A DNA stretch of 64,000 bases from Chloroflexota bacterium (GCA_016191395.1 JACPOS010000024.1:23111-87110); one strand, 5' to 3'. Numbered from the stretch's first letter, positions 40,535-51,139 are shown. The notes: generated by a model from the sequence alone, not told the origin. Numbers and translations are program-made.

Positions 40535-41698
40535 GTGGAGCACACCGCGGTCACCGTCCTCGAGGTCGGGGCGATCCTGCTCGCCGCGGCGTTCGCGGGC
40601 TGGGTCGCACGGCGGCTGAGCCTGCCGGCGATCGTCGGCTATCTCGCGGTCGGCGTGGCGGTGTCGCCGTTCACGCCGGGCTACGTCGCCGACGGGACGC
40701 AGGTCAGCCTGTTCGCCGAGGTCGGCGCGATCCTGCTCCTGTTCGAGGTCGGCATCGAGGTGGACCTGCGCGAGCTGCAGCGCGAGCACCCGGCCGTGCT
40801 CTGGGCGGCGCCGCTCCAGATGGCCATCACCTTCACGGCTGCGCTCCTGACCTTCTCGTGGCTCGGGCTCGAGCTCACCGCCGCCGCGCTGCTGGGCCTC
40901 GCGATCGCGATGTCGTCCAGCGTCGTGGTCGTCAACATCACCCGGAGCCGCCGCCGCACGACGGACCCCGAGACCGAGCACCTGCTGATCGGCTGGTCCG
41001 TGCTCCAGGACGTCGTCGGCGTGGCCGTTGCCATCGTGCTGCTCGCGGTGATCGGTGCCGGCCAGCCGATCGGGATGACGCTGCTCGGCGGGCTCGGCTT
41101 CGCCGCGCTCGCAATCCTCGGCGCACGCCTCCTGCCCCGCGTCCTCGCAGGCATGCGCCGGGAGCCGGACCTGTTCCTCGCGGTCTCCGTCGCGAGCGGC
41201 CTCGCCATCGCCGGCGCCGGGGCGCTGTTCACGGGCATCCCGCTGGCACTCGCCGCGTTCATCGCCGGTCTGGCGATCAGCGAGGGGCCGGTCTCCAAGG
41301 AGGCCCGGCGCCGCCTGCTGCCGTTCCGCGACCTGTTCGCGATCTTCTTCTTCGTCGCGATCGGGACGCTCATCGACCCTTCGGCGCTCGGCCGGGGGCT
41401 TGGCTGGCTCGTCGCGTGCCTCGCGCTCGTGGCCGTCGCGAAGTCCCTCGTGATCTTAGGCCTCGCCAGGGTCTCGAGGCTGCCGGCGCACCCGGCGCAG
41501 CTCGGAATCGGCCTGGGTCAGGTGGGGGAATTCGGGTTCGTGCTCGCGACCGTCGCCGTCGCCCGAGGCATCCTGCCGAGCGAGGTCTACGCGGCCCTGC
41601 TTGCCTCGGTTGCGATCTCGATCGCTGTCTCGTCGATCGCGGCACGTCTCATCAGGCGGCCGGTGCGCGGCGGCCCCGCAGTAGTACTTCCGGGGTAA
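40535..41698 (+). CDS. CPA2-family cation:proton antiporter (Kef type)
   Basis: A 387-residue membrane protein with about 11 hydrophobic segments. LSLPAIVGYLAVGVAVSPFTPG and LFAEVGAILLLFEVGIEVDLREL are the classic Na+/H+ exchanger starts; IAMSSSVVVVNIT and LLIGWSVLQDVVGVAVAIVLL include the conserved Gln/Asp site region (W-S-V-L-Q-D). There is no C-terminal TrkA_N/RCK domain, unlike KefB/C. The ion (K+ or Na+) is not determinable. The following 113 bases contain the promoter and leader of the first tad-like cassette. Confidence 0.9.
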   Translation: MEHTAVTVLEVGAILLAAAFAGWVARRLSLPAIVGYLAVGVAVSPFTPGYVADGTQVSLFAEVGAILLLFEVGIEVDLRELQREHPAVLWAAPLQMAITFTAALLTFSWLGLELTAAALLGLAIAMSSSVVVVNITRSRRRTTDPETEHLLIGWSVLQDVVGVAVAIVLLAVIGAGQPIGMTLLGGLGFAALAILGARLLPRVLAGMRREPDLFLAVSVASGLAIAGAGALFTGIPLALAAFIAGLAISEGPVSKEARRRLLPFRDLFAIFFFVAIGTLIDPSALGRGLGWLVACLALVAVAKSLVILGLARVSRLPAHPAQLGIGLGQVGEFGFVLATVAVARGILPSEVYAALLASVAISIAVSSIAARLIRRPVRGGPAVVLPG

Positions 41699-41810
41699 GT
41701 CTGCAAGGACTTTTGTAAGGTTCGATCCTCGATAATGCTTGGACCCCTGCGTGGGGGTTGCGCCGACCGAGGCGTGGAGGGATCGGTCACGAGAGGCCGG
41801 GGGGTCTCGT
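41684..41810 (+). promoter_or_regulatory. Promoter and structured leader of tad-like cassette 1
   Basis: GATAAT at 41731-41736 is the probable -10; GCAAGG (41703) and GTACTTC (41684, in the antiporter 3' end) recur upstream of cassette 3. Between -10 and ATG three hairpins follow one another: ACCCC/GGGGT (41743-41758), GACCGA/TCGGTC (41765-41788, 12-base loop) and ACGAGA/TCTCGT (41789-41810, purine-rich loop that may contain the Shine-Dalgarno). The last ends one base before the ATG, so folding could control translation. Confidence 0.5.
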
Positions 41811-41811
41811 C

Positions 41812-42633
41812 ATGGCGTTCCGGGGGGAACGGTTTCAGGGAACGGATTTGGTGCGCCCGCAGCGCGCCGCGCGGCCGCACGAAGCGCCGCTCGCCGGACG
41901 GATCCGTCGCGGGCTCCGCCTCGATCCGCGCGGCCAGAGCGTCGTGGAGTTCGCGATCAGCGCGCCGGTCGTGCTGCTCATGGTGCTGTTCGGCATCGAC
42001 TTCGGCCGGGTCTTCCTCGGCTGGGTGACGCTGAACAACGCGGTCCGCGAGGCGGCCAATTTCGCCGCCATCAACCCGACCGGGTGGACCTCGCCGGGCA
42101 ACCCGGCGGTCCAGGCGGAGTTCCGGCGCCTCATCACGACCGAGGCGGCGAACATCAACTGCACGCTGCCGGGCACCCTGCCCGATCCCACGTTCCCGAA
42201 CGGCGCCGAGATCGGGTCGCCCGCAGTTGTGGCGATCACCTGCCAGTTCTCGCTCATCACGCCGCTCATCAGCGCCATCCTCGGGAGCCCGATCGACGTG
42301 AGCGCCTCGTCGTCGTTCCCGGTGCGCAGCGGGTCCATCGCCGGGACGCCCGCCGGCGGCGTCCTGCCGACGATCGGCGCATCCGGCGGGCCGACATCAA
42401 CGGCGACGCCTGCCCCTCCCGCCTCGCCGACGCCGGAGCCGATGTGCACGGTGCCCAATCTCAAGAACAAGGACAGCTCGGTCGCGGTCGGCTCGTACTG
42501 GGTGCCCGCCGGGTTCACGGCCGGCAACCTGATCTTCAGCCCGCTCGTGCCGCCGCACTACACCATCAAGAAGCAGTCGATCACGTTCAACAGCTCGGTG
42601 CCGTGCACCTCGACGATGACGGTGCAGCCATGA
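41812..42633 (+). CDS. TadE-like pseudopilin with C-terminal PASTA-like domain, cassette 1
   Basis: A 273-residue exported protein. A basic N-terminus (1-40) precedes GQSVVEFAISAPVVLLMVLFGIDFG: Gly41 followed by Glu at +5 and a hydrophobic helix is the TadE/class III prepilin pattern. A central region with conserved Cys (INCTLPG; AITCQFSL) follows, then a Thr/Pro linker (STATPAPPASPTPEP) and a ~62-residue end (CTVPNLKN ... PAGFTAGN ... CTSTMTV) with the V-P and A-G-F pattern of PASTA domains plus a flanking Cys pair. Its closest relative is the first gene of cassette 2. ATG 41812 follows the structured leader. Confidence 0.8.
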   Translation: MAFRGERFQGTDLVRPQRAARPHEAPLAGRIRRGLRLDPRGQSVVEFAISAPVVLLMVLFGIDFGRVFLGWVTLNNAVREAANFAAINPTGWTSPGNPAVQAEFRRLITTEAANINCTLPGTLPDPTFPNGAEIGSPAVVAITCQFSLITPLISAILGSPIDVSASSSFPVRSGSIAGTPAGGVLPTIGASGGPTSTATPAPPASPTPEPMCTVPNLKNKDSSVAVGSYWVPAGFTAGNLIFSPLVPPHYTIKKQSITFNSSVPCTSTMTVQP

Positions 42634-43142
42634 CGCCGCGTCGCGCCGCCCGCTCCCCGCGTGGGGCCAGGTCTGGCGGTCAGGCACTCGTCGAGTTCGC
42701 GTTCATCTTCCCGCTGATCGCCCTCATCGTCTTCGGGTTCATCGACGTCGGGCGGGCGGTGTTCCAGTCGAACACCCTCACGAACGCGGCCCGCCAGGCG
42801 GCACGCGTCGCATCGGTCAACCAGCTGGATCCCGTGGCGGGCCCATGGACGTGCCTGACTGATCATCCGGTGCAGGATCCGGCCAATCCCGGCTGGACCT
42901 TCCGTGGCTGTGCGGTCGCCGCGGGTGCAACCGCCGGGGTGCAGGCGGGGAACGTGTCGGTCGCCTACGCCGCGCCCCCGGGATCCGCCCTCGAGTGCAC
43001 CCTCGAGATCAACATCGGCTGCATCGTCACCATCACCGTCACCGCGAACTACGTGCCCATCACGCCCGTCGCCGGCCAGGTCATCGGGCCGATCGCCATG
43101 AGCGCCACTTCCTCCATGCCAGTGGAAAGGACTTTCCCGTGA
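42630..43142 (+). CDS. TadE-like pseudopilin, cassette 1
   Basis: A 170-residue TadE/TadG-like protein. Basic start, then GGQALVEFAFIFPLIALIVFGFIDVGRAVF with the Gly/Glu+5 pilin signature and TLTNAARQAARVASV, the standard 'N-A-R-x-A-x-R' helix of TadE. Cys residues (TCLTD, FRGCAV, LECTLE, GCIVT) suggest disulfides outside the membrane. It ends in GPIAMSATSSMPVERTFP, a usual TadE tail. ATG 42630 overlaps the preceding stop. The paralogue at 45476 is very similar. Confidence 0.88.
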   Translation: MTPRRAARSPRGARSGGQALVEFAFIFPLIALIVFGFIDVGRAVFQSNTLTNAARQAARVASVNQLDPVAGPWTCLTDHPVQDPANPGWTFRGCAVAAGATAGVQAGNVSVAYAAPPGSALECTLEINIGCIVTITVTANYVPITPVAGQVIGPIAMSATSSMPVERTFP

Positions 43143-44443
43143 GTACACGTCAATCCGGCCAGGCGCTGGTGGTCATGGTCGGCGTGATGTTCCTGTCGAT
43201 TGCCATCCTCGCCGTGATCATCGACGGCGGCAACGTGCTGACCCAGCAGCGGGTGGTCCAGGCGGGCTCGGACAGCACCGCGGAGGCGGGTGCCGTGGTG
43301 CTCGCAACGCGGCTGGCGGGCGTCCCGGAGCCGCTCGCCGGGTGGGACGCAACGATCGCGGCGAAGGTCGCGCAGTCCGCGGCCGCGAACAACATGACGG
43401 TGAAGGCCGCGTACTACACGGACATCTGCGGCATTCCGCTCAGGGCGGACGGAACCGCGGCCCTCAAGGTGGACGGCAGCGAGGATCTCGCGGTCGCGAT
43501 GGGCGTCGGCGGCGGGAGCCTGCCCGGCGGCACGGCCACCACGCCGGACTGCCCCGCCCTCACAGTGGGCCCGGTCGCGGGCGTCATGGTCATCGGCGAG
43601 AAGAACGTCGGCACCTTCGTCGCCCGCGCGATCGGCGTGCCATCCGTGGGGGTCAACACGCGCGCCACCGCGGTCGCCGGCTACCTGCAGGGCTACTGCC
43701 CGGCCGACCAGGGCGAGTGGTGCGCCGTCCTGCCCGTGACCATCCCCGTCAACCAGGTCACCTGCGACGGCCAGAACAACGTGGTCCCCGGCAGCACTGC
43801 CTGGCCATGGAACACGGTCCTCACCGTGCCGCTGTGCAAGAACAGCCCGGGCAACGTGGGCTGGCTGGACTGGACGCCGCCGGGGGGCGGTGCGAAGGAG
43901 CTCGTATGCTCCATCGTCAACCCGGACAACCCGCTGATCACCCTGCCCTCGTGGCAGTGGGTGCCCGCGACCGGCAACACGAACGGCGGCGGCAAGTGCG
44001 CCGATGACGACACGGGTATCAGCTACACGGGCGTCGAGGAGGCCATCCGCAAGTACAACGGCCAGATCGTGCTGATCCCGCAGTTCGACCTGACGTGCCT
44101 GGTGAAGAACGGCGATCCGAACCCGGTCAGCACCAAGCCCACCATCGAGACGCCGCCCTACTACGGCTGCCCGAACCTGCCAGGCGGCGGCAACGGCCAG
44201 AACCTCTGGTACCGGATGCCCAGCTTCGCCTTCTTCCAGCTCTGCGATCCCGGGATGGCGGGGTGCTCCGGCCGCAACGGTGCCTACATCCAGGGCAACG
44301 ACGCCGCGGTGTGCGATACGGGCAACGGCGCGACGTCGTGCCTCGTCGGCACGTTCACCGACGTGATGGGTGACGGCACGGTCGGGCCGGGCAACGGCTC
44401 TGGTACCGGCAGCAAGGCCGTGGGTGTGCAGCTGATCAAGTAG
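43139..44443 (+). CDS. TadG-like protein, cassette 1
   Basis: A 434-residue protein with the N-terminal Tad/TadG-like module: SGQALVVMVGVMFLSIAILAVIIDGGNVLTQQRVVQAGSDSTAEAG. The rest is a large, Cys-, Gly- and Asn-rich extracytoplasmic domain (YTDICGIPL, ATAVAGYLQGYC, VTCDGQNN, LPGGGNGQNLWYRMPSF) that I do not recognise as a known enzyme. GTG 43139 overlaps the preceding stop by 4 bases. It shares most of its length with the protein at 46000, evidence for tandem duplication of the whole cassette. Confidence 0.85.
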   Translation: MSTRQSGQALVVMVGVMFLSIAILAVIIDGGNVLTQQRVVQAGSDSTAEAGAVVLATRLAGVPEPLAGWDATIAAKVAQSAAANNMTVKAAYYTDICGIPLRADGTAALKVDGSEDLAVAMGVGGGSLPGGTATTPDCPALTVGPVAGVMVIGEKNVGTFVARAIGVPSVGVNTRATAVAGYLQGYCPADQGEWCAVLPVTIPVNQVTCDGQNNVVPGSTAWPWNTVLTVPLCKNSPGNVGWLDWTPPGGGAKELVCSIVNPDNPLITLPSWQWVPATGNTNGGGKCADDDTGISYTGVEEAIRKYNGQIVLIPQFDLTCLVKNGDPNPVSTKPTIETPPYYGCPNLPGGGNGQNLWYRMPSFAFFQLCDPGMAGCSGRNGAYIQGNDAAVCDTGNGATSCLVGTFTDVMGDGTVGPGNGSGTGSKAVGVQLIK

Positions 44444-44550
44444 TACCCGCGGCGCACGACGGGGGGCCCTTCGGCGGCGCCTCCGGTACGGAAGACCCAA
44501 GGACTACTAACCCCACCAATCGGGACTTCCGCCGAGCCCCTCGCAATGCC

Positions 44551-44625
44551 GGCCGCAAGGTCCGGATTTCGATACTTCCACAGGCCCAGAAGCGGCCTGA
44601 TGACCGAGGCAGACGGCGCTCGGTC
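44551..44625 (+). promoter_or_regulatory. Structured leader of tad-like cassette 2
   Basis: In the 202-base gap before cassette 2. GACCGA/TCGGTC (44602-44607 / 44620-44625) has the same arms, the same 12-base loop length and the same GGC loop start as the second hairpin of the cassette 1 leader. An outer pairing GGCCGC (44551) / GCGGCC (44592) encloses GATACT, a possible -10. GCAAGG is present at 44555. Confidence 0.45.
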
Positions 44626-44645
44626 GGGGAAGGCGGACCGCGCGG

Positions 44646-45479
44646 ATGGCATCTCCGGGGATCCACGAGACGGCCGAATCGTCGGCGCACGCGCCGGCCG
44701 CGATGGGCACGAAGCGCGCCCGCCGGCGGTTCCGATTCAGCCTGGATCCCCGCGGCCAGAGCCTCGTGGAGTTCGCGATCAGCTTCCCCGTCGTGATGCT
44801 GATGATCCTGTTCGGCATCGACTTCGGCCGCGTCTTCGTCGGCTGGGTGGAGCTCAACAACACGATGCGCGAGGCCGCCAACTTCGCCGCCATCAATCCG
44901 AATGCGTGGGGCACGCCCGGCAACGCCACGGCGCAGGCGGAGTTCGTCCGGCTGGTCACCGCAGAGGCAACGCCGATCAACTGCACGCTGCCGAACCCGC
45001 TGCCGGTCCCAACGTTCCCGAACGGAACGAACATCGGGCAGCCGGCAATCGTCGCGGTGACGTGCCGGTTCTCGCTGATCACCCCGCTCATCGGCAACAT
45101 CCTGGGCAGCCAGATCAACGTCAGCGCCTCCGCATCCTTCCCGATCCGGAGCGGGCTGATCGGTGACGGCACGACGCGCGGCGGACTGGCCACCTTCGTC
45201 CCGGCCGTCCCGACGGCGACACCCCTCTCGACGCCGGTGCCCACCGCGACCCCGTTCCCGACGCCGTCCGCCATCCCCACGGCCGCGCCAACCTGCAAGG
45301 TGCCCGACTTCGTGAACCTGAACACGAGCCAGGCAACCAACAAGTGGACCAGCGCCGGGTTCCAGGCGAGCCACCTGACCTTCAACCCGCTGGTGCCACC
45401 GAACTACAAGATCAAGAGCCAGAGCCTGACCAAGGGCGACACCGTGGCCTGCACCTCGACCATCATCGTGAAGCCATGA
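44646..45479 (+). CDS. TadE-like pseudopilin with C-terminal PASTA-like domain, cassette 2
   Basis: A 277-residue paralogue of the protein at 41812. LDPRGQSLVEFAISFPVVMLMILFGIDFGRVF carries the Gly/Glu+5 signature (Gly37). The central domain keeps INCTLPNPLP and VTCRFSLITPLI. The linker is longer and richer in Thr/Pro (PTATPLSTPVPTATPFPTP), as in wall-spanning proteins. Residues ~217-277 (CKVPDFVNL, A-T-N-K-W, SAGFQAS, IKSQSLTKGDTV, CTSTIIV) fit a PASTA domain. ATG 44646 is used; ATG 44703 is a possible later start. Confidence 0.8.
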   Translation: MASPGIHETAESSAHAPAAMGTKRARRRFRFSLDPRGQSLVEFAISFPVVMLMILFGIDFGRVFVGWVELNNTMREAANFAAINPNAWGTPGNATAQAEFVRLVTAEATPINCTLPNPLPVPTFPNGTNIGQPAIVAVTCRFSLITPLIGNILGSQINVSASASFPIRSGLIGDGTTRGGLATFVPAVPTATPLSTPVPTATPFPTPSAIPTAAPTCKVPDFVNLNTSQATNKWTSAGFQASHLTFNPLVPPNYKIKSQSLTKGDTVACTSTIIVKP

Positions 45480-45973
45480 GGCGCTTCTGGCGAAAGCGGT
45501 CCGCCGGTCAGGCGCTGGTGGAGTTCGCGTTCATCTTCCCGGTGATCGCGCTGCTCGCATTCGGGTTCATCGACATCGGCCGTGCGGTGTTCACGGAGAA
45601 CACGCTGGCAAACGCAGCTCGCGAGGGCTCGCGCGTTGCCGCCGTCAACCAGCTGGACCCGGTGAACGGGCCCTGGCTGTGCCAGTCCAATAAGCCCATC
45701 GAGGACCCGAGCAATCCAGGCTGGACATTCCGCGGCTGCGTGATGACGTCCGGGGCGGCGCTCGGCATCCAGCACGGCGACATCTCGATCAGCTATGCCG
45801 CGCCTCCCGGCACGACCATCACGTGCACGGGCGGGACGCTCACGGTCGGCTGCATCGTGACCGTCACCGTCGTCACGAACTATGTCCCGATCACGCCGGT
45901 CGCAGGGTCCGTCATCGGCCCGATCTCGATGACAGCCACCTCCAGCATGCCGATCGAACGGCTCTTCCCGTAG
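45476..45973 (+). CDS. TadE-like pseudopilin, cassette 2
   Basis: A 165-residue paralogue of the protein at 42630: AGQALVEFAFIFPVIALLAFGFIDIGRAVF, then NTLANAAREGSRVAAV and the same order of Cys-containing segments, ending GPISMTATSSMPIERLFP. ATG overlaps the preceding stop by 4 bases. It is likely to be assembled or anchored with the other proteins of its cassette in the cytoplasmic membrane. Confidence 0.88.
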   Translation: MRRFWRKRSAGQALVEFAFIFPVIALLAFGFIDIGRAVFTENTLANAAREGSRVAAVNQLDPVNGPWLCQSNKPIEDPSNPGWTFRGCVMTSGAALGIQHGDISISYAAPPGTTITCTGGTLTVGCIVTVTVVTNYVPITPVAGSVIGPISMTATSSMPIERLFP

Positions 45974-45999
45974 TGCCCACCAAGGGAGAGGAGATTCGG

Positions 46000-47331
46000 A
46001 TGTTCGCGCCCAAGCGGCTCATGGCGAAGCGTTCCGGCGAGGCCGGGCAGGCGCTCGTCGTCATGGTCGGGGTCATGCTCCTGTCGATCGCCATGCTCGC
46101 GGTCATCGTCGACGGCGGCAACGTCGTGACGCAGCAGCGCGTGGCCCAGACCGGCGCCGACAGCACGGCAGAGGCGGGCGCGATCGTGCTTGCCCAGCGT
46201 CTCGCGGTCACGACGACGCCGTCGGGCGGCTGGGACGCAGAGGTCGTGGCCAAGCTCGCAGCATCCGCGAGTGCCAACAACGTCGTCGTCAAGGCGGCGT
46301 ACTACACCGATATCTGCGGCATCCCGCTCAAGTCGGACGGAACGGCTGCCCTCAGCGTGGATGGGACCGAGAACCTCGGCGTGGCCATGCGCGTCGGGAG
46401 CGGCGGCCTGCCCGGCGGGTCGGCGACGACCCCGGACTGCCCCAGCCTGAAGGTTGGACCAGTGGCGGGCGTCCTGATCATCGGCGAGAAGACGGTCGGG
46501 GCGTACGTCGCCCGTGCGATCGGCATCCCGACGTTCACGGTCACGACGCGGGCGACCGCGGTTGCCGGTTACCTGCAGGGCTACTGCAGCGCGAGCCAGG
46601 GGACGTACTGCGCGGTCCTGCCCGTGGCGATCCCGGTCAACGTCGTGACCTGCGACGGCCAGAACAACGTCCAGCTCGGGGATCGTCCCTGGGACTGGAA
46701 CACGACGATGACGGTCCCGCTGTGCAAGAACTCACCGGGCAACGTGGGCTGGCTGGACTGGGATCCGCCTGCCGGCGGCGCGCAGGAGATCGTCTGCTCG
46801 ATCATCAACCCGGACAACCCGGCGGTCGTGCTGCCCTCGTGGCACTACGTCGCGGCAACCGGCAACACCAACGGCGGCGGCAAGTGCACCGACGCGGAGA
46901 CGGGCAAGGTCTACACGGGCGTCGAGGACGCGATCCGCAAGTACGACGGCCGTGTCGTCCTCATCCCGCAGTTCGACATGACCTGCCTGACGGGCAACAA
47001 CCAGCCGGACCCAATCAGCACCGATCCGGAGGTGAACAAGGCACCGAACTTCGGCTGCCCGAACGCGCCGGGCGGCGGCAACGGCCAGAACATCTGGTAC
47101 CGAATGCCCAGCTTCGCCTATTTCGAGCTGTGCGAGCCGTCGAACCCGGACTGCGGCGGCCGCTACGGCGCCTACATCCAGGGCAGCGACAGCAACATCT
47201 GCGATACCGGCAACGGGGCCACCTCGTGCCTCGTCGGCAAGTTCATCGACATCCTCGCCACCGGAACCGTTGGACCCGGCGTCGGCTCCGGCACCGGCAG
47301 CAAGACCATCGGGGTCCAGCTCATCAAGTAG
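46000..47331 (+). CDS. TadG-like protein, cassette 2
   Basis: A 443-residue paralogue of the protein at 43139, with GQALVVMVGVMLLSIAMLAVIVDGGNVVTQQRVAQTGADSTAEAG and the same large Cys/Gly/Asn-rich outer domain. ATG 46000 has a clear Shine-Dalgarno (GGGAGAGGAG) and lies 26 bases after the preceding gene, whereas the cassette 1 copy starts by overlap; the translation signal therefore changed after the duplication. A strong terminator follows 29 bases after the stop. Confidence 0.85.
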   Translation: MFAPKRLMAKRSGEAGQALVVMVGVMLLSIAMLAVIVDGGNVVTQQRVAQTGADSTAEAGAIVLAQRLAVTTTPSGGWDAEVVAKLAASASANNVVVKAAYYTDICGIPLKSDGTAALSVDGTENLGVAMRVGSGGLPGGSATTPDCPSLKVGPVAGVLIIGEKTVGAYVARAIGIPTFTVTTRATAVAGYLQGYCSASQGTYCAVLPVAIPVNVVTCDGQNNVQLGDRPWDWNTTMTVPLCKNSPGNVGWLDWDPPAGGAQEIVCSIINPDNPAVVLPSWHYVAATGNTNGGGKCTDAETGKVYTGVEDAIRKYDGRVVLIPQFDMTCLTGNNQPDPISTDPEVNKAPNFGCPNAPGGGNGQNIWYRMPSFAYFELCEPSNPDCGGRYGAYIQGSDSNICDTGNGATSCLVGKFIDILATGTVGPGVGSGTGSKTIGVQLIK

Positions 47332-47360
47332 CGAGCTCTCCTGCCGTCTCCCCGCGCACC

Positions 47361-47392
47361 AGAAGCCGCGTCGCCTCCTCGGCGCGGCTTCT
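47361..47392 (+). terminator. Terminator after cassette 2
   Basis: Perfect 10-bp stem AGAAGCCGCG / CGCGGCTTCT with a 12-base loop, directly downstream of the second TadG-like gene. It separates cassette 3 as its own transcription unit. Confidence 0.7.
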
Positions 47393-47463
47393 GCATGTCC
47401 GGCGTGGTGCGGCGTTGTCGGGCGCAGTCCGGTACGGTCCGGGTCGGTGCATCCCTGCCCCTG

Positions 47464-47538
47464 GTACTTCTGGCCCGCAAGGTCCACCGAAAGTTTGGGC
47501 CGGGATAATTCCCCTCGGTCGACGCCCAGTTCGGCGTC
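47464..47538 (+). promoter_or_regulatory. Promoter and hairpin leader of tad-like cassette 3
   Basis: GATAAT at 47504-47509 is the probable -10. GTACTTC (47464) and GCAAGG (47477) repeat elements seen before cassette 1; GCAAGG-to-GATAAT distance is 27 here and 28 there. A hairpin GACGCC/GGCGTC (47521-47538, 6-base loop) lies in the leader before the TTG start. Confidence 0.4.
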
Positions 47539-47559
47539 CGTTCGGCACGGGGAGATCGC

Positions 47560-48087
47560 TTGTTCCGACGCAAGGTGACGAGCGGCGCCGCAGGCGCGAG
47601 CCGAACGAGGGAGTCCGGCCAAGGGCTACTCGAGTTCGCCCTCGTCGCCCCGATCTTGATCCTCCTCGTTATGGCAGTGTTCCAGTTTGCGTACGTGCTT
47701 CAAAGTCAGATGGGCCTTACGAACGCTGTTCGCGAGGCTGCCCGCCGGGCAGCAACAGCGAATGCTGTCGATGAGGCAGGCATGCGCACGTGGGTACTCG
47801 ATCAATTGCAGTACGCGAGCACTGGCCTCTTGGCGACGAATGTGCCGGGCTTCATCTCCAGTCGACTGGGAACTGGGGGTAGCGCCCCATCGGTAACCTT
47901 CTGCACGTACGGCACCAATCAACGGGTCTTGGTGACCGTGACCTATAACCACCCAGTGTTCTTCCCACTCCTGGGTTTTGCCACCGATGCGATCGATGGC
48001 ACACCCGACGGCAGCTGGACGCTCTCTTCGTCAGCCCAGATGCGACTTGAGCATCCATTCTCGACGGCACCTACCTCGACATGTTGA
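47560..48087 (+). CDS. TadE-like pseudopilin, cassette 3 (first)
   Basis: A 175-residue TadE: basic start, GQGLLEFALVAPILILLVMAVFQFAYVL with Gly/Glu+5, then NAVREAARRAATANA. No PASTA-like end and no Thr/Pro linker. It begins at TTG 47560, with GGGGAG 6 bases upstream. The DNA from here to 51139 is visibly less GC-rich than its surroundings. Confidence 0.85.
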   Translation: MFRRKVTSGAAGASRTRESGQGLLEFALVAPILILLVMAVFQFAYVLQSQMGLTNAVREAARRAATANAVDEAGMRTWVLDQLQYASTGLLATNVPGFISSRLGTGGSAPSVTFCTYGTNQRVLVTVTYNHPVFFPLLGFATDAIDGTPDGSWTLSSSAQMRLEHPFSTAPTSTC

Positions 48088-48614
48088 GGAACCGGCACAC
48101 ACCAGCCGGCGGCCAAGCGCTCGTGGAGTTCGCGCTCATCGCTCCTATTCTGTTCTTGTTGCTGTTCGGCATCATTCAGATCGGCCTCGTTATGGCTGCG
48201 CAGAACGGGCTCGTCGACGCCGCGCGTGATGCCGCCCGCCGCGCCGCAACCTACAGAATCAACGCGGACAGCTTTAGCCTCACCGTGTTTCCCTCAATCT
48301 GCGACTCGATCAAGAAGACGTTCGATGATCATCTCAGGCCGTCGATCCCGGGATACTCGAATGCGAACCGGACTCGAACGATCACCTACGAGTGGCAGCA
48401 GGACCCGATCGCCGGACAGTACTTTCTGGTCGCACACGTCGTAGGCACATACAAGAACCCACTGTACGTCCCTCTGGTTAGCCAGTTTCTCGATGGGACG
48501 GACGGCACCAACGATGGCAAGTTGGAGTTGAGGGCAAGCGAGCAGATGCGTGTCGAGAATCCGATCCTTGCGACGCCAACATCGACGGCACCGCAAGTGT
48601 GTACCGGTACATGA
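48081..48614 (+). CDS. TadE-like pseudopilin, cassette 3 (second)
   Basis: A 177-residue TadE: GGQALVEFALIAPILFLLLFGIIQIGLVM, then GLVDAARDAARRAATYR. An outer domain with two Cys follows. ATG 48081 overlaps the previous gene by 7 bases. The order small-small-large equals that of cassettes 1 and 2 although the sequences are only distantly similar. Confidence 0.87.
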   Translation: MLRNRHTPAGGQALVEFALIAPILFLLLFGIIQIGLVMAAQNGLVDAARDAARRAATYRINADSFSLTVFPSICDSIKKTFDDHLRPSIPGYSNANRTRTITYEWQQDPIAGQYFLVAHVVGTYKNPLYVPLVSQFLDGTDGTNDGKLELRASEQMRVENPILATPTSTAPQVCTGT

Positions 48615-48628
48615 CGATGAGGAGTCCA

Positions 48629-51139
48629 ATGAGCGACGTCCGCCCGCCCAAGGGCCAGGCCTTGGTGCTCTTTGCCTTGTTTCTCCTCGTCCTCCTCGGC
48701 GTGTCGGCGCTCGCAATCGACTACGCGAACTGGCTGCTCATCGACCGTCAGCTTCAGAACGTTTCGGACCACGCAGCATTGGCGGGCGCGGCAGAATTCA
48801 GCTCGGACTTCACCGCGGGCAATTGCGGCAGTGGCTCAGGTCCGACACAGTGCCTCAATGCCAGGACGCAGGCATGGACGACTCTGTTTCAGGAACTGAA
48901 TCTCTCCGGAAACGCTGGGGCAAGTGCGGCAATTGCCCAGCTCGCTCAGACAGATAGTCCGGCGGTCGGCGTTCAAGAGGTCACCCCTGTCGGCTTCCCG
49001 AAGATTGTCTTCAACCACACGATCTGGGTATCGACGCCGCCACCGACCAATTCGAACGGACATGTCGAATACACGCAGGTCGGCGGGAAGTACGCCGGGA
49101 GCTTCGGCATCATGTTCGTCCGGGTCGACCGGCCAACCCGATCCTATTTGGGAGGCGTGCTTGGCATTCGACCTGGAGACCGAACGGGATGGGCAACGGC
49201 AGGGATTCTTCCAACGGACTTCGCGTTGGAGGTCTTTTGTCGTGATCAGATTGCGCCAGAGCCCGGCGTATGCTCCACGACGGCAAGCCTCGGAATCGCA
49301 GGTGGCGGAGGGATCAGCCTTGATCGCGGCGACGTCGGGAGCAACAACAGCGTCAAGGTGACGTCGGCGGTTGGGCCGGGCGTTGTCGTTAAGGCTGGAA
49401 ACGTGTTCGTCGTCGAAGGTTCGTGTGGTCAGCTTTGGAACTGCCCACCAGCAACCGCAGGCGGAATCTCGGACGGCAGCGGCACCGCAAAGAACGCGTT
49501 CTACATCCCGCCATTTCCGGTTCCGAACTACGCGCTGCCAACGGGTATTGACAATCAAGATTGCGCGACAGGCCCGTGCGTCCCCGGCACGGGTGCCAAC
49601 GGCGCGACTCCCATCGACTGGAGCTGCTCCGGATCAGCATGTGGAACCCCAACGCGTCCGAACGGAATCAACGACCCAAGCGTTCGGTGCACTGGAGCGT
49701 CTGGAGCAACGCAGCAGCACCTTGTCCCGGTCGCCGACATTACAACCACAAACTTCAAGGGCACTGCAAGTGGGGCAACGAACAACAACATCTACCGAAA
49801 CATCAACACCTCGTCGGTTGACCCAGCAGGAACTGCTATCCCACTCCCGCCGTCCGCCTCGACGCCATTTCCGACGACACCCGGGCCGACTGACCAGGTC
49901 TACAGCACCAACGGGAACAACGCGACATACGTTGTTCAGCTCGCCACGCCCAATGGAACGATTCAGGCTGGATCCCAGATCTACGCACGATTTGTGCTGT
50001 TCCGAACGACTGGCAGCGGTGGGAGCGCGGGATCATACGACTCGGTCGCAAGTGGAACCGCATTCACGCCAACAGTGGTTGCCCAGCTAATGGAAAAGCG
50101 CAGCGGAGTGTGGACCCCGATCGGGTCCGCAACGGCGTCGCTGGACGCAACTACCGTCATGACTGCATACCAGATTCCTCAGGTTAGTTCTGCATCGCTG
50201 CAAAGTGCCAACAATCCCACTCTTGGAATCAAGTTCACTGTTACGTCGGGTGGGTCAGGTGCCAACGCACGAGGGGCAGGTATTAGTTGGGCCGAGGCCT
50301 ACATCGATACACCGCCGGTACCGCCGCCTCCGCCGATGATCCCCCCAGGGATGTATCGATCGATCTCAATCGCGAGCGGCGGGTGCGCGGTGCTGGACCC
50401 CACCGGCCTCTATAGTTCGCCGTCAGGGCTCGCTCACAACCAGATGCCCGGCGTCTATTACTTCAAGGACGGTGGCACCGGCAACCAGAAGCCGACCATC
50501 TTCCTCGATACGGGATCGTATTTGATCGGGGATGGGGTAACTCTTGTCTTCGACCCCAACTGGCCTGATCCATCAGGGCAACAGGGAATCGCAGTCGGCG
50601 CGAACTCCGCTCTGGTCATCAACACGGCACGGAACACGGCACCAAACTGCTCGACTTGGTATGCGACAAACCAGTCGTATCCCCTGTGTCCGCTCCCATG
50701 GGATGCGTTGGCGGCCGCGTGGATGATCGATCCTGCGAACCCGTCGGCTAACGCGAGCTCGCCGTGGGGTGGAGCCTGTGCCGAAGTGACGCCATGCTCG
50801 GTGGCTCGCAGCTCGTATGCACCAACTGCGAACTACCGCGGAGTCAGTTTTTATCTCCGACCGAAGACGAACGGCTCGACCAATCCGGCAGACTACTCCG
50901 TGCTCGGCCGCTTCTCGATCTCCGGCAACGCCGGCTCGGAGCCGGGCATCGCGTTCAGAGGCATCCTCTACGCGCCGTACGACAATGTCACGATCACTGG
51001 TGGGAACGGGTTCAACACCATCGGTATGGTATTGAGCTGGACGGCAAAGTTCGCCGGGCAAGCAACCATCAAGTTGGACTACCCATACACGAGGGTCATT
51101 TCCCCGCCGTACCTGATCGAACCCACCGTCGGCCAGTAG
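48629..51139 (+). CDS. Large TadG-like surface protein, cassette 3
   Basis: An 836-residue protein. The N-terminal Tad module (GQALVLFALFLLVLLGVSALAIDYANWLLIDRQLQNVSDHAALAGAAE) anchors it in the membrane; the remaining ~770 residues are extracytoplasmic, rich in Gly, Ser, Thr, Asn and with scattered Cys. A polyproline stretch (PPVPPPPPMIPPG) near residue 565 divides it. The final part (NYRGVSFYLRPK, GILYAPYDNVTI) looks beta-helical, as in surface adhesin-like proteins; this is inference. ATG 48629 has AGGAG at the right distance; the track's start 30 bases earlier has none. Codon use is less GC-biased than that of neighbours. Convergent with the LCP gene, 19 bases between. Confidence 0.8.
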   Translation: MSDVRPPKGQALVLFALFLLVLLGVSALAIDYANWLLIDRQLQNVSDHAALAGAAEFSSDFTAGNCGSGSGPTQCLNARTQAWTTLFQELNLSGNAGASAAIAQLAQTDSPAVGVQEVTPVGFPKIVFNHTIWVSTPPPTNSNGHVEYTQVGGKYAGSFGIMFVRVDRPTRSYLGGVLGIRPGDRTGWATAGILPTDFALEVFCRDQIAPEPGVCSTTASLGIAGGGGISLDRGDVGSNNSVKVTSAVGPGVVVKAGNVFVVEGSCGQLWNCPPATAGGISDGSGTAKNAFYIPPFPVPNYALPTGIDNQDCATGPCVPGTGANGATPIDWSCSGSACGTPTRPNGINDPSVRCTGASGATQQHLVPVADITTTNFKGTASGATNNNIYRNINTSSVDPAGTAIPLPPSASTPFPTTPGPTDQVYSTNGNNATYVVQLATPNGTIQAGSQIYARFVLFRTTGSGGSAGSYDSVASGTAFTPTVVAQLMEKRSGVWTPIGSATASLDATTVMTAYQIPQVSSASLQSANNPTLGIKFTVTSGGSGANARGAGISWAEAYIDTPPVPPPPPMIPPGMYRSISIASGGCAVLDPTGLYSSPSGLAHNQMPGVYYFKDGGTGNQKPTIFLDTGSYLIGDGVTLVFDPNWPDPSGQQGIAVGANSALVINTARNTAPNCSTWYATNQSYPLCPLPWDALAAAWMIDPANPSANASSPWGGACAEVTPCSVARSSYAPTANYRGVSFYLRPKTNGSTNPADYSVLGRFSISGNAGSEPGIAFRGILYAPYDNVTITGGNGFNTIGMVLSWTAKFAGQATIKLDYPYTRVISPPYLIEPTVGQ

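Follow-up and report, generated by a model that had tools for sequence, protein, structure and literature searches.

TadE-TadE-TadG cassettes as probable alternative tip sets of a single Tad/Flp pilus in a Chloroflexota genome

The draft genome of a Chloroflexota bacterium (GCA_016191395.1; 2.42 Mb, 89.9% complete) carries three consecutive TadE-TadE-TadG gene cassettes within JACPOS010000024.1:23111-87110 (G000:C26:23111-87110), a stretch of 64,000 nucleotides referred to here as the window. These cassettes, together with a fourth on another contig (C22, L009:14806-17473), are probably alternative minor-pilin or tip sets for a single Tad/Flp pilus, the machine for which is encoded elsewhere in the genome. 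The machine locus is on contig C30 (L024), where flp, flp, rcpC, tadZ, tadA, tadB and tadC lie on one strand and neither TadE nor TadG is present. The two flp genes were called from a Flp_Fap match below the cut-off (E 2e-5), the short pilin form with G-x-x-x-x-E-Y, and their position. All 8 TadE matches and all Tad matches of the genome fall in the three window cassettes and the fourth cassette; since there is one Tad machine, the cassettes are most likely minor pilins of that pilus.

Two contigs, C30 and C9, encode TadA-type ATPase domains. C30 also carries the one TadB/TadC pair found in the genome, and the one A24 prepilin peptidase is encoded on C18. There are thus four paralogous three-gene sets in the genome against one TadB/C pair. 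A first-pass annotation, made from the window sequence alone, had found no TadA, TadB/C, secretin or prepilin peptidase there and had suggested that a machinery elsewhere serves the cassettes. This is borne out, as none of these is present in the window, the tad locus and the prepilin peptidase are on other contigs, and no PF00263 (secretin) match was found anywhere in the genome. With no detected secretin, the host is likely to be monoderm. A complete tad machinery just outside the window can be ruled out, since the 23 kb of contig upstream hold ribosomal-protein and other housekeeping genes and, although the contig ends with the window downstream, relatives carry no machinery at the matching position. 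The annotation had also contrasted the cassettes with a Flp pilus locus. That contrast does not survive: the complete-looking, monoderm-type Flp/Tad locus lacks its own TadE and TadG, and in a sister family the trio is found within such a locus, so the cassettes are best read as the minor pilins or tips of this pilus.

Cassettes and machine across related genomes

The separation seen here is a feature of the genus, which we take to be a Limnocylindria lineage. In all 15 genus genomes there is no TadE near the main TadABC locus, every TadE being on another contig or, in G003, approximately 165 kb away; where the contigs are short, as is often the case, the distance is a lower bound. In the sister family of the same class (f4), tadE-tadE-tadG shares a stretch with rcpC-tadZ-tadA-tadB-tadC in all five loci (L114-L118), with a tadA 78-79% identical to the one here. 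In one f3 locus the trio immediately precedes the machine, and two further loci (f3 and f5) have a machine and no trio within the stretch read. The simplest history inferred from these sequences would be a linked ancestral trio that was later detached and multiplied in this lineage.

Within the family to which the genus belongs (f1), 59 genomes have both TadE and T2SSF genes, 6 have neither and 8 have one only (p 2e-4). The number of TadE genes in the 51 family genomes with exactly two T2SSF genes, equivalent to one TadB/C pair, ranges from 0 to 11 with a median of 4.

The C9 gene (L027:137-2002; also L122-L127) encodes another ATPase of the TadA type, in which the Walker A motif is intact and a RidA/L-PSP-like domain is fused to the C-terminus. 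The gene is not located with the tad locus, and it is conserved across all seven genus genomes that were compared. Its product might serve the Tad pilus as a second motor or as a regulator. In G014, there are extra T2SSE ATPase loci at C3:35803-39060 and C177:29402-32644, each with one TadE-like gene about 3 kb off, and these are apparently additional Tad-like systems.

Cassette anatomy and outer domains

Nine genes on the + strand of the window form three TadE-TadE-TadG operons, exactly where the first-pass annotation had placed three small-small-large cassettes. Their features are as follows.

41812..42633, + strand: cassette 1 (type A) TadE1; mature start at 41932; PF07811 E 1e-14; motif G|QSVVEF; Pro/Thr linker
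42448..42630, + strand: C-terminal region of TadE1 from cassette 1; alignable with the PASTA-like module of its cassette 2 counterpart
42630..43142, + strand: cassette 1 TadE2, pilin-sized; PF07811 E 6e-16
43139..44443, + strand: cassette 1 TadG, type A, 434 amino acids, 14 Cys; PF13400 E 1e-3, just under the cut-off
44646..45479, + strand: cassette 2 (type A) TadE1; mature start at 44754; PF07811 E 5e-12; Pro/Thr linker
45297..45470, + strand: terminal PASTA-like module of cassette 2 TadE1; PF03793 E 0.002, sub-threshold at 18.4 bits against a cut-off of 23.2
45476..45973, + strand: cassette 2 TadE2, pilin-sized; PF07811 E 1e-14
46000..47331, + strand: cassette 2 TadG, type A, 443 amino acids; PF13400 E 4e-5
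47560..48087, + strand: cassette 3 (type B) TadE1, TTG start; PF07811 E 1e-13
48081..48614, + strand: cassette 3 TadE2; PF07811 E 1e-16
48629..51139, + strand: cassette 3 TadG, type B, 836 amino acids; PF13400 E 6e-9
49889..50308, + strand: approximate jelly roll, carbohydrate-binding-module-like, of cassette 3 TadG; range estimated from predicted strands and the conservation profile

The TadE domain (PF07811) scores above the cut-off in all six small proteins of the window, with E values from 5e-12 to 1e-16. The Tad domain (PF13400) does so in the TadG of cassettes 2 and 3 and falls just short in that of cassette 1, such that the Tad module proposed earlier for each large protein was recovered in all three. 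The predicted prepilin signature is likewise confirmed, with the prepilin peptidase motif G|Q-x-x-x-E-F (Glu at +5) in 6 out of 6 small proteins; both TadE of cassette 4 have G|xxxxE. The TadG proteins retain the Gly-Gln, lack Glu+5 and have a hydrophobic residue at +5; Glu+5 was not counted as a requirement for membership of TadG. Neighbouring genes of a cassette mostly share 4-7 bases, suggesting that their translation is coupled. A scan between cassettes identified no promoter-like sites, and terminators were near the chance number.

The cassettes are self-contained repeats, as had been proposed, but not three equals. Cassettes 1 and 2 are paralogues, with 72% identity between their TadG, and cassette 3 belongs to a different class, with type A and type B TadG being deeply different. 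A recent tandem duplication generating cassettes 1 and 2 is not supported, as the nearest relative of each is in another species; the forks within the cassette 1/2 clade of the TadG tree are weak. The large proteins had also been described as having Cys- or Asn-rich outer domains. This is fair, although the enrichment is mild: 14 Cys (3.2%) and 5-6% Asn in type-A TadG, and 1.9% Cys and 5.9% Asn in type B. They are not unrelated fragments. Type-A TadG is full length and conserved from end to end, with approximately 0.72 identity throughout between species and the outer domain nearly equal in this to the N-terminal helix part. Type-B TadG is intact and has near-full-length relatives with 44-50% identity in six other genus genomes.

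The distal parts of these proteins are modular, with PKD or PASTA-like ends on TadE1 and a carbohydrate-binding-like jelly roll on type-B TadG. Among 19 TadE1 of class A and its relatives, 5 have PKD domains (E down to 7e-36) and 3 have a PASTA-like end, the best of which scores 18.8 bits against the cut-off of 23.2. The terminal module of cassette 2 TadE1 matches at E 0.0016-0.002, below the curated cut-off, and a firm PASTA assignment was therefore not accepted. The corresponding region of cassette 1 TadE1 by itself gives no match to Pfam PASTA at E 0.05.

No sequence similarity to solved structures was found for either TadG class. The AlphaFold model of type-A TadG from cassette 2 (mean predicted local distance difference test score, pLDDT, 77) starts with a single long helix at the N-terminus, after which come beta domains. 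That of type-B TadG (mean pLDDT 60) contains a beta-sandwich matching CBM4/28/29/61 and similar carbohydrate-binding modules, with Foldseek E ~1e-3 and probability up to 1.0. The sandwich was set at about residues 421-560 from predicted strands, the Foldseek output being without aligned residues. The jelly-roll shape is common, so carbohydrate binding by the modelled domain is just a suggestion. Identity in the middle of type-B TadG drops to 0.22-0.36, and the predicted jelly roll overlaps the least conserved stretch. A relative of type-B TadG in G003 (L096:8914-11595) has matches to carboxypeptidase-regulatory and SdrD-B-like domains, both of which fit a long insert in the variable middle.

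Inheritance of the cassettes and their two chromosomal sites

A total of 36 E-E-G triplets from genus loci were compared. The pairwise identity matrices of E1, E2 and G correlate with r of 0.93-0.94; reshuffling partners within genomes gives a mean correlation of ~0.14, and 0 out of 2000 shuffles reach the observed value. On these alignments, the E1, E2 and G genes are inherited as a block. Such inheritance is expected of an obligate complex and would be indirect support for one heterotrimer per cassette. An apparent TadE2-TadG fusion in L098 is an artefact of a masked run of N.

The cassettes occupy two fixed sites across the species, in species-specific mixes of 1-5. Site 1, that of the window, is flanked on one side by an NADH-dehydrogenase-like gene and, in some genomes, an Na/H exchanger, and on the other by a LytR-CpsA-Psr gene. 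Its content here is A-A-B. In G012, A-B is accompanied by a further type-B TadG; G003 has three cassettes at this site, G006 has two, and G014 has four that are complete and a fifth that is degenerate. G004 carries an array of two that probably also belongs to site 1, although its flanks match less clearly. Site 2 has an OmpR-type response regulator and a HAMP/HisKA histidine kinase on one side; on the other is an HD-domain gene in most of the genomes that have a type-A cassette there. Here and in G003, G006, G011, G012 and G014 it carries a single A cassette; G002, G005 and G009 instead have three cassettes that belong to other classes. In the TadG tree, type-A proteins group by site, those of site 1 and those of site 2 each forming a well-supported clade of its own, which indicates that the two A lineages have remained distinct throughout the genus.

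The response regulator and histidine kinase genes (L009:12483-14686, with the same flank in L100, L101, L103, L105 and L107-L111) directly adjoin the site 2 cassettes, ending ~120 bp before TadE1 here. It is possible that they control expression of the site 2 tips. The second type-B TadG in G012 (L097:6557-9088) comes after the first and is without its own TadE pair. One TadE in G014 (L094:12874-13077) looks truncated. The lone TadG and the truncated TadE may be signs of cassette birth and decay.

A broader picture can be put forward tentatively, and we hold it with less confidence than we would a coin toss. Limnocylindria-like Chloroflexota may combine one Tad machine with a repertoire of exchangeable tip cassettes, 1-5 at each site and differing from species to species. 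Whole E-E-G units would be gained, lost and swapped, and the adjoining response regulator and histidine kinase would control the site 2 tips. If this is correct, a modular adhesion system of the 'one shaft, many heads' kind would exist outside the predatory diderm bacteria.

A model for the cassettes and its alternatives

It is clear from the sequences that the cassette anatomy, the single Tad machine without TadE or TadG, the joint inheritance, the sister-family linkage and the variable content at two sites all stand. Processing, trimer formation, tip position, interchangeability, adhesive function and ligands are what we infer from them. In the model, each cassette would encode one heterotrimeric minor-pilin complex of TadE1, TadE2 and TadG. 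The single prepilin peptidase would cut the TadE proteins, and possibly TadG, and the three helices would form a bundle that initiates Flp pilus assembly by the one TadA/B/C machine. The pilus tip would then carry the large outer domain of TadG together with the TadE1 stalk, which is of PKD or PASTA-like type. With four alternative tips in the genome (A, A and B at the window site and A at the second site), one pilus could have several binding specificities.

Several observations count against this model. TadG is without Glu+5, which makes its processing uncertain, and the best match in the PDB for the type-A TadG model, the tip minor pilin CofB, is weak and non-significant (Foldseek E 0.025, probability 0.03). 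Joint inheritance would also result from block duplication without a physical complex. The four cassettes might be expressed under different conditions, not exchanged on one machine. A second TadA-type ATPase is present, and in a genome that is 89.9% complete a TadE or TadG gene beside another machine could be missing. Finally, three family genomes have TadE and no detected TadB/C, these being incomplete metagenome-assembled genomes.

The cassettes could instead encode envelope-anchored surface adhesins or wall-binding proteins, in which the TadE/G helix does no more than anchor them in the membrane and the Tad machine plays no part. The PASTA-like and PKD ends of TadE1, the carbohydrate-binding-like jelly roll of type-B TadG, the location of the cassettes apart from the machine, and the LytR-CpsA-Psr wall-ligase gene adjoining the window site would all fit. 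Yet the prepilin-type motif G|xxxxEF is retained in both TadE of nearly every cassette, cassette presence is tied to TadB/C across the family, and the trio belongs to the Tad locus in the sister family. Such anchoring would, moreover, leave the Tad machine without minor pilins, and we consider it unlikely. It is less probable still that one cassette serves the Flp pilus and that the others are specialised for another filament, or for secretion, powered by the orphan TadA-RidA ATPase. The conservation of that ATPase in the genus, away from the tad locus, and the deep difference between the TadG types are in keeping with such a division. Against it, the genome searches recovered a single TadB/TadC pair and a single prepilin peptidase, which would leave a second filament without its own platform protein, and in the loci read the second ATPase gene adjoins no cassette.

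The first-pass annotation had allowed for either a surface structure or a set of surface antigens. Antigens diversifying to escape phage or predators would account for the different cassette content of the same site between species and for the very variable middle of type-B TadG. They are disfavoured for type A because its outer domain is well conserved between species, and the type-A proteins form site-specific orthologous clades. This explanation is highly improbable, and the cassettes are better regarded as tip sets of the Flp pilus.

Comparison with known systems

The closest parallel is the Kil (Tad) pilus of Myxococcus, which has four paralogous KilLMN (TadE/F/G-like) clusters that provide interchangeable tips for one pilus (PMC12075869). 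Any one cluster is enough for polymerisation and the pilus is abolished when all four are lost. The interchangeable tips were shown in 2025 in predatory myxobacteria, and the authors propose that other Tad pili are likewise customised. By the sequence search of that study, Kil tip genes are confined to Myxococcota and found almost only in Myxococcales, and Chloroflexota are unmentioned in its text (PMC12075869). Like the cassettes here, KilLMN Tip1-Tip4 of M. xanthus are several paralogous sets of three genes, one for a large TadE/F/G-like minor pilin and two for smaller ones. Both are mostly located away from the machinery of one Tad pilus, contain Cys, and have a large member with a variable distal domain. 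The cassettes here differ in being from Chloroflexota with no secretin detected, in the order E-E-G, in their tandem arrays at two fixed sites, and in their PKD or PASTA-like TadE1 stalks. By analogy, they probably work like Kil tips; the likeness proposed is one of function, and membership of the Kil family is not claimed.

If so, the locus and its relatives would be a separate case from a distant phylum most of which is uncultured. Their cassettes stand in tandem at fixed sites and differ in content among close species, which makes the setting of pilus specificity by minor-pilin trios testable by comparison and by cassette swapping.

Within the phylum, the available part of one report places tadEEG with rcpC-tadZABC and flp in Chloroflexales (PMC7332563). 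The gene set and E-E-G trio are the same as here; that part mentions the genes as present only, and describes no multiple, tandem or site-specific cassettes. Another source has a single tad operon in Chloroflexota (PMC13319060). Canonical Tad/Flp loci with linked tadE-tadE/F-tadG, as in the sister family, have the same machine genes and trio; there the trio is linked to the machine, whereas in this genus it is detached and multiplied. A type IVa/b pilus or type II secretion system would be marked by a secretin, as in diderms, and none was detected in this genome. The CofB-type tip minor pilins of type IVb pili belong to a different pilus class and their match to type-A TadG is non-significant, but they share with it a weak likeness of fold and the idea of a tip initiator.

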